DNA of 34,709 nucleotides, from positions 1 to 34,709 of the forward strand of contig JAADEJ010000071.1 in assembly GCA_013153475.1 (NCBI GenBank). Direction: 5' to 3'. The notes beneath the pieces were generated by a model, which saw only the letters and a list, made by a program, of their open reading frames with translations, had not been told where the DNA came from and did no database searches. Position 1 is the first letter of the stretch. Every line of letters starts with the position of its first letter. Below are positions 14,689 through 18,425 of the stretch, in pieces. Source of the DNA: Campylobacterota bacterium (lineage in GTDB: Bacteria; Campylobacterota; Campylobacteria; Campylobacterales; Hydrogenimonadaceae). Made by a program: the position numbers and the translations under genes.

Positions 14689-16650
14689 ATGGCGGACAAC
14701 AACCAAAAAGGTCCCGATAACCAGAATTTTTTCAATAAAAATCCCCTCTTTACCTTTGCCATTTTCTCACTGCTGATTATTGTGCTTTTCAAGAGCCTGG
14801 TGGGGCAGGAGGAGTTTGGGGCGCACAATCCCGCGGCCATGGGGGGTGCTTCCATGACGCCCGCCCAGACGCGGATGGTGCCCTATTCGGATCTGAAAAA
14901 GATGATCAAAGAGGGCAAGATCAAGTATGTCTCCATCGGTCAGACCACCATCAAGGCCGTCGGCGGCAGCGGCGGTGTGAAAACCCTTTATGTGGCCAAA
15001 CGGGTGGGGGAGGACAATACTCTCATTCCCCTGCTGGACAAGATGGGGGTGGAGTATAGCGGTTACAGCGAGAACAACTGGCTGGGCGAGATTCTCTTCG
15101 GCTGGGTACTGCCCATCTTTATCTTTTTTGGTATCTGGATGTTTCTGGCCAGCCGGATGCAAAAGAATATGGGCGGCGGGATTCTCGGGATGGGAAGCGC
15201 CAAGAAGCTGGTCAACTCCGAAAAACCCAAAGTGAAGTTTGACGATGTGGCCGGCGTGGAGGAGGCCAAGGAGGAGGTACAGGAGATTGTGGAGTTCCTG
15301 CGCCATCCCGAGCGCTACATCCGCCTGGGGGCCAAGATCCCCAAAGGGGTGCTGCTGGTGGGCCCTCCGGGTACCGGTAAAACCCTGCTGGCCAAAGCGG
15401 TGGCGGGCGAGGCGAGCGTGCCTTTCTTCTCCGTCAGCGGCTCCAGCTTCATTGAGATGTTCGTGGGTGTGGGCGCGGCCCGGGTGCGAGACCTCTTTGA
15501 GCAGGCCAAAAAGGAGGCGCCGGCCATTATCTTTATTGACGAGATCGACGCCATCGGCAAGAGCCGCGCCGCCAGCGGGCAGATCGGCGGCAATGACGAA
15601 AGAGAGCAGACCCTCAACCAGCTGCTGGCCGAGATGGACGGCTTCAGCTCCGATACCCCCATTATCGTATTGGCGGCCACCAACCGCCCCGAGGTACTGG
15701 ACGCGGCACTGCTTCGGCCCGGGCGGTTTGACCGGCAGGTTTTGGTGGACAAGCCCGATTTCGAGGGGCGGGTGAAGATTTTGAAGGTACACGTCAAGGC
15801 CATCAAGATCGCCGATGACGTGGATCTGGAGGAGATCGCACGCCTGACCGCCGGATTGGCGGGGGCGGATCTGGCCAACATCGTCAACGAGGCGGCCCTG
15901 CTGGCCGGACGCCAGAACAAGGAGCAGGTGGAGCAGCAGGATTTCCGCGAGGCGGTCGAGCGGGCGATTGCCGGGCTGGAAAAGAAGTCCAGACGCATCA
16001 GCCCCAAAGAGAAGCGGATTGTCGCCTACCACGAAAGCGGCCACGCGCTTATCGCCGAAACCACCGAGGGGGCCAAGAAGGTCTCCAAGGTCTCCATTAT
16101 TCCCAGGGGTCTGGCGGCGCTGGGGTATACGCTCAATACGCCCGAAGAGAACAAGTACCTGATGCAAAAGCATGAGCTGGTGGCCGAGGTCGATACCCTT
16201 TTGGGCGGTCGGGCCGCCGAGGAGGTCTTTATTGAAGAGATCAGCACGGGGGCCAGCAACGACCTGGAGCGGGCTACCGATATCGTCAAAGCGATGGTGA
16301 GCCTGTACGGCATGAGCGACGTGGCGGGGCTGATGGTACTGGAGAAGCAGACCAATATGTTCCTGGGCGGCGGGATGAGCCAGAAAGATTACAGCGAAAA
16401 GACCGCCGAGGAGATGGACGCCTTTGTCAAAGCCTTCCTGGATGAGCGCTACAAGGCGGTGGTAGAGCGGCTGGAGCGCTACCGGGGCGCCATCGAGGAG
16501 ATGGTCGAGGAACTTTTCAAGGCCGAAACCATCGAAGGGGAGACGGTGCGCCGCATTATTCGGGCCTTTGAAGAGAGAGAGGGCCTGCCTTCGTTGCTGC
16601 AGGATGAAGAGGGGGAGGATACATCGACCCAAAACGACCCGAAGGCGTGA
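14689..16650 (+). CDS. ftsH: ATP-dependent zinc metalloprotease FtsH
   Basis: This 653-residue membrane-bound AAA protease degrades misfolded and regulatory membrane proteins. It has a first membrane helix (about 20-40), a periplasmic domain and a second helix (about 136-160). The AAA module follows, with Walker A GPPGTGKT (225-232), Walker [13 protein letters not shown] and the second region of homology [21 protein letters not shown]. The zinc motif is HESGH (448-452), and the third ligand is expected in [12 protein letters not shown] at 14689 is chosen because AAGGA lies 6 bases upstream; an in-frame ATG at 14653 inside prmA is unlikely. Confidence 0.97.
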
Positions 16651-16664
16651 GCTTTCGGGAAGTA

Positions 16665-16673
16665 TGCTATACT
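16665..16673 (+). promoter_or_regulatory. Extended -10 promoter of the leuA leader
   Basis: TG-C-TATACT is a strong extended -10 element in the gap after ftsH. It lies about 28 bases before the leader-peptide start and about 190 bases before leuA, so the leuA transcript would have a long 5' leader. Confidence 0.55.
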
Positions 16674-16700
16674 TTCATCATGACTTCACAGGAGTGTATG

Positions 16701-16790
16701 ATGCAAGGCAGTGAAACAGGCCGTATCAAAGCCATTCGACACCTTCCCAAAATCGAGATCAAAAATACCCTCCTATTGCCGCTGTTTTAA
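16701..16790 (+). CDS. leuL: Candidate leucine leader (attenuator) peptide of leuA
   Basis: This 29-codon ORF ends with codons ACC CTC CTA TTG CCG CTG TTT and stop: four leucines in the last six residues (TLLLPLF), including CTA, which is little used in this window. AGGAG lies 6 bases before the ATG at 16701; an adjacent in-frame ATG at 16698 is only 3 bases from it. It sits between a promoter and leuA, exactly as a leucine-sensing leader would. Ribosome stalling at the Leu codons when charged tRNA-Leu is scarce would then favour leuA expression. I see no clear G+C-rich terminator hairpin after it, only two U-rich runs at 16793-16825, so the mechanism downstream of stalling is open. Confidence 0.6.
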   Translation: MQGSETGRIKAIRHLPKIEIKNTLLLPLF

Positions 16791-16865
16791 TACTTTTTTA
16801 CCCGTTTTTACACCCCGTTTTTTTAAAGAAGAGAACCGGAAGGTTTCATAACCAAAGGATGAACC

Positions 16866-18425
16866 ATGAATCAGAAAGCAAAAGAAAGAGTCTATATATT
16901 CGATACCACGTTGCGTGACGGTGAGCAGAGCCCCGGCGCCTCCATGAACACCGAAGAGAAGATCAAGATCGCTTTGCAACTTGAGCGGTTGGGCGTGGAT
17001 ATTATCGAAGCCGGGTTCGCCGCCGCCAGCCCGGGCGATTTTGACGCCATCAGCCGCATTGCCGACGCGGTGAAAAAGAGTACCGTCTGCTCTTTGGCCA
17101 GGGCCGTGGAGCGGGATATCGTCAAGGCGGGCGAGTCGCTTGAAAAGGCCGAAAAAAAGCGGATTCACACCTTTATCGCCACCAGCCCCATCCATATGGA
17201 GCACAAGCTTCGCATGAAGCCTGACGAGGTAATCGCCCGTGCCGTCGAGGCGGTGAGGCTGGCCAAAAGCTTTACCGATGACGTGGAGTTTAGTTGCGAG
17301 GACGCGGGCCGCAGTGAGATGGGCTTTTTGAAAGAGATCCTTGACGCGGTGATCGAGGCGGGGGCTACGACGCTCAACATCCCCGATACCGTCGGCTACC
17401 GCCTGCCCCAGGAGATGGGGGCGATGATCAAAGAGCTTTATGATCATGTGGGAAAACGCGCCATCATTTCGGTCCATTGTCACAACGACCTGGGCCTGGC
17501 CGTGGCCAATTCGCTCTTTTCGGTCTTAAACGGCGCGCGGCAGGTGGAATGTACCATCAACGGATTGGGTGAACGGGCCGGTAACGCGGCGTTGGAAGAG
17601 ATCGTGATGGCCATGAAGACCCGAAGTGATGTTTTCAATGAGGTAGAGACCGGCATCAACACCCGCGAAATCTACCCTACCAGTCGCCTGGTGGCCGCCA
17701 TTACCGGCATCGAACCCCAGCCCAACAAAGCGATTGTGGGCAAAAACGCCTTCGCCCATGAAAGCGGCATTCACCAAGACGGTGTGCTCAAGTGCCAGGA
17801 GACCTACGAGATCATGAAGGCCGAGGATATCGGTTTGGAGGCCAACCGCATTGTCCTTGGCAAGCACAGCGGGCGCCACGCGTTCAAAGAGCGCTTGCAG
17901 GAGCTGGGATTCGACCTTGGCGAAGAGGATTTGAACAAGGCCTTTGAGCGCTTTAAAGTGTTGGCGGACAAGAAGAAAGAGATTTACGATGACGACATCC
18001 GTATGCTGATCGCCAACGAGATCACCAATATCCCCCAAACCTATGAGTTGGTGGGCTTGCAGATCGCCGACTGCTCCGGCGGGGTGCCCAGCGCGGCGGT
18101 GAGAATCCGTCATGAGGGCAAGGAGTTGCTGGACGCGGGTATCGGTGACGGGACGATGGACGCTATTTTCAAAACCATCGACCGCATCAGCGGCCACACG
18201 GGCCAGTTGATGGATTACCGGGTCGAGGCGGTTACCAAGGGCAAGGACGCTTTGGCCAAGGTGGTCGTCAATGTCCGTTTTGACGAGAGCCAAAACGCCG
18301 TCATCGGGCACGGGCTCAGTATCGATACGATGCTTGCCAGCGCCAAAGCCTACATCGGGGCGCTCAACAGCTATCTTTCCATGCGGCCCGAAAAGAGCGA
18401 CGAAAAAGCGTGCGGCGGGGTTTGA
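16866..18425 (+). CDS. leuA: 2-isopropylmalate synthase LeuA
   Basis: This 519-residue enzyme condenses acetyl-CoA with 2-oxoisovalerate, the first committed step of leucine synthesis. The TIM barrel starts with [13 protein letters not shown] (R17, D18), has the metal site VHCHNDLG and the GLGERAGNA loop. GIHQDGVLK and LGKHSGRHA mark the linker region. The C-terminal domain (about 395-510; [16 protein letters not shown]) is the leucine-binding feedback domain. Length and motifs indicate a true IPMS instead of homocitrate or citramalate synthase. AAAGGA lies 6 bases before the ATG. It ends 6 bases from the convergent pflB gene. Confidence 0.95.

Follow-up and report, generated by a model that had tools for sequence, protein, structure and literature searches.

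A LeuL leader peptide preceding leuA in a Hydrogenimonas-like genome: a likely leucine sensor with a terminator-free, probably Rho-dependent, readout

Between ftsH and leuA of a Hydrogenimonas-like genome lies a short open reading frame (ORF) that closes on a cluster of leucine codons, and the question it raises is how such a leader could control leuA with no intrinsic terminator between them. We analysed a contig stretch of 34,709 nucleotides, called the window throughout, in which the order of ORF and leuA on the + strand was confirmed by re-reading the sequence. Its nearest labelled relatives are MAGs labelled Hydrogenimonas or Campylobacterales; LeuA of locus L002 is 99% identical. The elements of the region are as follows.

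Ends at 16650, + strand: ftsH (name from the preliminary description of the region and from reading of the sequence)
16665-16673, + strand: extended -10 element TGCTATACT (sequence)
16668-16673, + strand: -10 hexamer TATACT, inside TGCTATACT
About 16679-16681, + strand: expected transcription start, judged from the promoter motif
16680-16700, + strand: in-frame upstream extension from ATG 16680, a possible leaderless LeuL start
16690-16694, + strand: leader Shine-Dalgarno sequence AGGAG (SD1; sequence)
16698-16703, + strand: tandem ATG ATG at the leader start (sequence)
16701-16790, + strand: LeuL leader ORF, 29 codons plus TAA, peptide MQGSETGRIKAIRHLPKIEIKNTLLLPLF
16743-16766, + strand: codons of the conserved peptide core LPKIEIKN (alignment within relatives)
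16765-16774, + strand: segment AUACCCUCCU, with Leu codons, able to pair with the SD1 region AGGAGUGUAU at 16690-16699
16770-16784, + strand: Leu control codons CTC 16770, CTA 16773, TTG 16776 and CTG 16782
16791-16853, + strand: linker containing three T-runs, free of terminator-like hairpins; putative Rho entry region
16854-16859, + strand: leuA Shine-Dalgarno sequence AAAGGA (SD2; sequence)
16866-18425, + strand: leuA, 2-isopropylmalate synthase, 519 aa (relatives by protein search; name from the preliminary description and sequence reading)

The preliminary description had placed a 29-codon ORF with its own SD between an extended -10 element and leuA, and our reading confirms it. The encoded peptide has 29 residues with four Leu among the last six codons, and the 3' end of the ORF reads CTC CTA TTG CCG CTG TTT, then TAA. 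The four Leu codons are thus as first described, except that they do not stand right before the stop, a Phe codon (TTT) separating CTG from TAA. From the LeuL stop to leuA is 75 nt. An ATG at 16680 is in frame with LeuL and falls approximately at the expected transcription start. In L002 the SD and start codons of the window, AGGAGTGTATGATG, read AAAAACGTATCCAG, with the remaining ORF almost unchanged. L002 has lost SD1 and ATG 16701 and has kept, as in the window, the ATG near the expected start and the open frame, which suggests a leaderless start; translation of LeuL from such a start is possible in the lineage of the window and L002. Leaderless mRNAs have been reported in C. jejuni (PMC3847290, PMC11955535).

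That a leucine leader is undescribed in Campylobacterota, as first supposed, is refuted by two papers. In C. jejuni, a 28-aa peptide with five rare Leu codons encoded upstream of leuABCD received the name LeuL from Porcelli et al. 2013 (PMC3847290), who reported that its RNA ends shortly 3' of the stop codon and that orthologs exist in most Epsilonproteobacteria having leu genes. Ribosome profiling of C. jejuni in 2025 (PMC11955535) placed initiation peaks on LeuL, which is accordingly translated; in the tblastn search of that study, leuL was generally confined to C. jejuni or related Campylobacter. By the character of its sequence we identify the window ORF as LeuL, a kind of leucine leader already known from Epsilonproteobacteria. 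It shares with the LeuL described in PMC3847290 a length of 20-35 aa, several C-terminal Leu, a place directly upstream of leuA and its own RBS, as well as rare Leu codons and an upstream transcription start, which in the window is predicted from a promoter motif.

Of 100 non-redundant loci (L002-L111 minus two without a LeuA motif and eight same-contig duplicates removed by hand), 52 have upstream of leuA an SD-led short ORF with at least four Leu in its last 12 codons; among 2000 dinucleotide shuffles, 33 do. Most Hydrogenimonas leaders, which have only two or three Leu in the last 12 codons, lie outside the 52. Within this genus, 18 genomes including the source genome gave 16 readable leuA upstream regions, 15 of them with a called leader, and the motif TGNTATA[AC]T (extended -10) precedes leuA in 14 of the 16. 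The first reading had been made to depend on conservation in related genomes; all 15 called leaders carry the same core, and at the sixteenth locus (L002/L083) the core is in frame, with SD and start lost. Conservation and the excess over shuffles together support the view that this is a leader peptide with terminal Leu codons.

By pattern search the LPKIEIKN core was found in 80 of 223 distinct upstream regions (kept from 253 loci), across six families. The 75 distinct sequences found in this way have the core residues fixed by construction, and the fixation is informative at positions outside the pattern, where one G (74/75) and two K (72/75 and 73/75) are fixed. Leader bodies vary by group: next to LPKIEIKN we distinguish an Arcobacter type (FIKSVNSLLLL), two Sulfurovum types, a Helicobacter type and two smaller groups, all named after labelled members and drawn up from the peptides by the analyst. 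Leaders of family f10, such as MSENGIIKSRKFLPKIEIKNSLLLLLR, contain the LPKIEIKN core and, with 27 aa and five consecutive Leu, are similar in size and Leu number to the published C. jejuni LeuL (28 aa, five Leu). Some leaders end with two Leu codons only, as in NTLLS-stop of L003, and the peptide tail 3' of the Leu pair is variable. Core and Leu codons are also kept in an f18-like group (L099, L112-L121, L123), in which the SD is mostly weak (AAGGA). Among Nautiliaceae-labelled loci none of ten gave a convincing call (L033, L045, L047, L048, L051, L052, L059, L060, L065, L066).

The LeuL body in Hydrogenimonas is under peptide-level selection. Across codons 2-25 of the 15 leaders, which were selected by position and not by motif, pS is 0.642 and pN 0.106, and in the other two frames the relation is reversed (pS/pN 0.121/0.256 and 0.122/0.241); leuA of the same set has pS 0.763 and pN 0.071. 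Synonymous sites are free at codons 18-21 (pS 0.829, pN 0.013). At codons 22-25, which encode Asn-Thr-Leu-Leu, pS is just 0.297, and these codons are constrained at the codon level. Fourteen of the 15 leaders have CTA as their second Leu codon, although CTA accounts for 1.7% of the 300 Leu codons counted across six genes of the window. Codons and SD/Leu complementarity were read in 68 of 69 selected leaders, L106 being left out; core-bearing leaders have a strong CTC-CTR bias, and Arcobacter-type leaders use TTA in 5 of 75 Leu codons versus 83% TTA in leuA there. The source genome holds tRNA-Leu genes with anticodons CAG, TAA, CAA and TAG. No tRNA-Leu with anticodon GAG was found in the eight stretches scanned, which covered those eight of 38 matches that were at least 80 nt long; the assembly is 92.5% complete and may be missing one. 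Given a tRNA-Leu set without GAG, CTC and CTA probably share tRNA-Leu(UAG).

A further property lies in the RNA. Many leaders have an SD complementary to their own Leu codons, some beyond the SD core, as where AGGAGGATAGA pairs with TCTATCCTCCT in an 11-bp helix of the Sulfurovum-type leaders L012, L016 and L110, and AGGAGAATAG with CTATTCTCCT in L022; in the window nine of ten positions pair between 16690-16699 and 16765-16774. The pairing was tested on 169 leaders drawn from the 223 upstream regions and defined by peptide pattern, at least two Leu, a linker of 25-230 and distinct SD and tail, in seven groups, of which Sulf1 includes doubtful calls (L015, with its SD cut off, L046 and L169). 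Cognate SD1:Leu duplexes have a mean of -10.99 kcal/mol versus -10.04 in within-group permutations (z -7.6, 0/5000). By group, permutations reached the cognate value in 0/5000 for LPKIEIKN and for each Sulfurovum type and in 93/5000 and 586/5000 for two small groups; cognates had no advantage over permuted pairs in the Arcobacter (2349/5000) and Helicobacter (4709/5000) types. The overall result holds in finer subgroups (z -5.5, 0/20000), where the Sulfurovum types and one small group account for most of it. Taken singly, the five LPKIEIKN subgroups tested are all non-significant, Hydrogenimonas included (723/5000), so that the group-level LPKIEIKN signal is one between subgroups, the level with the least control for relatedness. 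Nearest-neighbour swaps for SD1:Leu gave 60 better, 30 worse and 39 tied. The probability that SD1 pairs with the last 36 nt is 0.85 for native leaders, 0.37 after codon-order shuffling and 0.73 after synonymous permutation (n=161, without the Helicobacter type), and the Helicobacter type behaves in the opposite way (0.29 native versus 0.43 and 0.59). Pairing is weak in f18-like leaders (mean -5.55). SD1:Leu pairing thus clearly covaries in Sulfurovum-type leaders, and such a lock is absent from the f18-like and Helicobacter-type groups.

The window itself is less distinctive. Folding of its leader, an early suggestion, revealed an unexceptional overall fold (z -0.71). The SD1:Leu duplex (-10.7 kcal/mol) has no advantage over synonymous recodings of the window leader, of which a fraction of 0.53 is at least as strong. 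The minimum-energy folds of that leader lack the SD1:Leu helix and place SD1 elsewhere, and forcing the helix costs 3.5 kcal/mol, though SD1 pairs with the last 36 nt at a probability of 0.73. With an unexceptional duplex and the best folds elsewhere, the lock is to be taken as a finding on the relatives, one with which the window is compatible; in the window, as within Hydrogenimonas alone, it is without statistical support.

How the state of the leader would reach leuA depends on what lies between them. A terminator scan gave no match between the window ORF and leuA, its two matches lying at 16392-16408 (- strand) and inside leuA, and an intrinsic terminator was accordingly rejected for the window leader; the preliminary description had likewise seen no terminator with high G+C here, and the T-runs are where it had put them. 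Comparison with known Rfam leaders returned nothing at gathering and two chance-level matches (E 2.7 and 7.4). Just 5' of the leuA SD, at 16833-16846, GAACC-GGAA-GGTTT could form a small GNRA-capped hairpin, also present in L002. Linkers have more C than G in 150 of 161 non-Helicobacter leaders versus 24 of 62 control 5' flanks, the latter drawn from longer loci only. The median length of LPKIEIKN-type linkers is 57 nt, and they contain 5% G and 19% C; positions 16775-16850 of the window, with 15 C and 12 G, are only mildly G-poor. Few terminators and G-poor linkers are features of the family, and the source genome contains, besides the tRNA-Leu genes, a probable rho gene: a 438-aa ORF with a Rho_N match above cut-off was read as Rho.

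Linkers of other groups hold further elements. Small inverted repeats such as ATCGTTTAAAACGAT or ATAGTCTCACTAT start at the LeuL stop in L013, L022, L028, L029, L042, L164 and L194, which are part of the Sulfurovum-type leaders, and the changes between them are paired. A post-stop hairpin was considered as a general terminator and rejected, since folding of 81 leaders from four groups found it in only part of the Sulfurovum- and Arcobacter-type leaders. Arcobacter-type linkers (e.g. L049, L071, L079) contain a -10-like box, often GATATAAT, in 18 of 18 cases by a loose pattern without a chance control, as if a second leuA promoter bypassed the leader.

Two rival readings keep the Leu codons as sensor and differ in the readout. 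In classical attenuation, an intrinsic terminator would compete with an antiterminator. Terminator-like sites are indeed present in 13 of 169 leaders, eight times as often as in mononucleotide shuffles (8 of 845), with the excess spread over four groups, and some lineages may therefore use intrinsic terminators. In eight f10 leaders (L204, L244, L246, L248, L249, L251, L252, L253) the last Leu codons form a hairpin whose 3' arm, in all but L204, includes the stop codon, and this hairpin is possibly a ribosome-controlled terminator or a 3' end. Readouts may thus differ by lineage. Against classical attenuation as the explanation for the window stand the terminator-free leader, its ordinary fold and the short, G-poor LPKIEIKN linkers, and we regard it as improbable. 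The other reading is translational attenuation, with the Leu codons masking the leuA SD, as proposed for the actinobacterial LEU element; a UCCU in the Leu segment is indeed complementary to AGGA of the leuA SD (4 bp), and SD2 pairing slightly exceeds the shuffled-linker value in three of seven groups (+0.01, +0.03, +0.09). In the four other groups, comprising 150 of the 169 leaders, SD2 pairing averages below that value, and SD2:Leu duplexes of the 169 leaders had no cognate advantage under within-group permutation (z +0.23, 2914/5000). Masking of the leuA SD by Leu codons, without covariation and with little or no excess pairing, was rejected, and we consider this reading very improbable.

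Two further rivals look to the peptide. That LeuL is a functional small protein, for instance a modulator of LeuA, and no cis regulator would fit its peptide-level selection, and adjacency to leuA is no independent evidence on the point because only leuA upstream regions were examined. The tail 3' of the Leu pair is variable, however, and the N-T-L-L codons are themselves constrained, so that a small-protein function seems to us scarcely credible. More serious is a nascent-chain sensor, in which LPKIEIKN within the exit tunnel would induce a ribosome pause at the Leu codons that follow, or a ribosome response to leucine as such. Peptide-level conservation, at codons 18-21, is found directly 5' of the Leu codons; the core recurs in six families, with a G and two K fixed outside the pattern; and leaders such as that of L003 have only two terminal Leu codons. 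On the other side, bodies differ in the Sulfurovum-, Arcobacter- and Helicobacter-type groups, and the CTC-CTR codon bias argues for tRNA sensing. We consider nascent-chain sensing possible, if on balance doubtful; it is compatible with leucyl-tRNA sensing as an added layer, in which the peptide, and not only tRNA supply, would set the pause.

LeuL, just ahead of leuA, is very probably where the ribosome senses leucine shortage. The reading we prefer is a leucyl-tRNA sensor with a terminator-free readout in Hydrogenimonas, most likely Rho, and perhaps with a self-lock on leader translation. Taken as a whole we think it reasonably probable, slightly less so in view of the subgroup results, which count against the lock in this genus. 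When the UAG isoacceptor of leucyl-tRNA is in short supply, the ribosome would pause at CTC-CTA, and RNA polymerase would continue into leuA. With ample leucine, the ribosome would finish LeuL and leave, and RNA polymerase would be halted before leuA. As no intrinsic terminator is seen here in Hydrogenimonas, Rho is the most likely agent of this stop, and the linker, terminator, SD2 and Rho_N results together led us to choose this readout for the genus. Of the two readouts raised at the outset, the Rho-based one is accordingly plausible, and translational control at the leuA SD is unsupported. Rho would halt transcription on the stretch between the Leu codons and leuA, an unstructured and G-poor RNA that a paused ribosome would shield. 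In many relatives, free Leu codons can pair with SD1, such that a finished leader would tend to close its own initiation, and a paused ribosome would keep SD1 open and allow more ribosomes to load, the self-lock sharpening the switch; we infer this effect on leuA, as we do the working of a lock in the window.

A more far-reaching version of this reading would make LeuL an attenuator of new build, in which the control codons are the anti-SD of the leader start, a conserved nascent peptide sets the pause and Rho is the brake. We judge it rather unlikely in full; if true, a paused ribosome would hold its own gate open. These findings make LeuL, hitherto a predicted regulator, testable in its mechanism: peptide conservation, rare-codon choice and, in relatives, covarying pairing constitute three separate point-mutation predictions. 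If Rho is the brake, this would be amino-acid attenuation without a hairpin terminator.

For LeuL itself, ordinary stall-dependent antitermination was proposed in PMC3847290, and the accessible part of that paper presents no peptide-level selection, SD1:Leu pairing or Rho readout. A search of titles and abstract starts, outside subscription papers and supplements, likewise returned no SD1:Leu pairing or Rho readout for LeuL; its peptide sequence conservation, the constraint on the Asn-Thr-Leu-Leu codons, the SD1:Leu pairing in relatives and the usually G-poor linker with its rare terminators look new. The window shares with classical amino-acid attenuators the control codons near the ORF end and differs in having no intrinsic terminator before the first gene. 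TnaC of E. coli is also a short conserved peptide, and its stalled ribosome is proposed to shield a Rho entry region just 3' of the ORF; the signal for TnaC is an excess of tryptophan, acting at the stop codon, whereas LeuL would answer leucyl-tRNA shortage at Leu codons. For E. coli trpL, distal leader RNA reportedly masks the leader RBS and so limits the peptide to about one copy per transcript; an intrinsic terminator is present in trpL, and its masking segment is not known to be the control codons. The ilv-leu attenuator peptide of S. aureus (PMC5794164) resembles LeuL in being a leucine-dependent 26-aa leader with Ile and Leu codons, and differs in operon, in phylum and in a predicted terminator hairpin 52 nt 3' of the stop that is kept in staphylococci. 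The actinobacterial LEU element (Seliverstov et al. 2005, PMC1262725), in a paper that also mentions Rho-dependent tna attenuation, is again a leuA leader with a Leu run whose Leu codons pair with an SD. In the LEU element the partner is the leuA SD, and there is a conserved pseudoknot (PMC1262725), whereas in LeuL the partner is the SD of the leader itself and the leuA SD is without signal.
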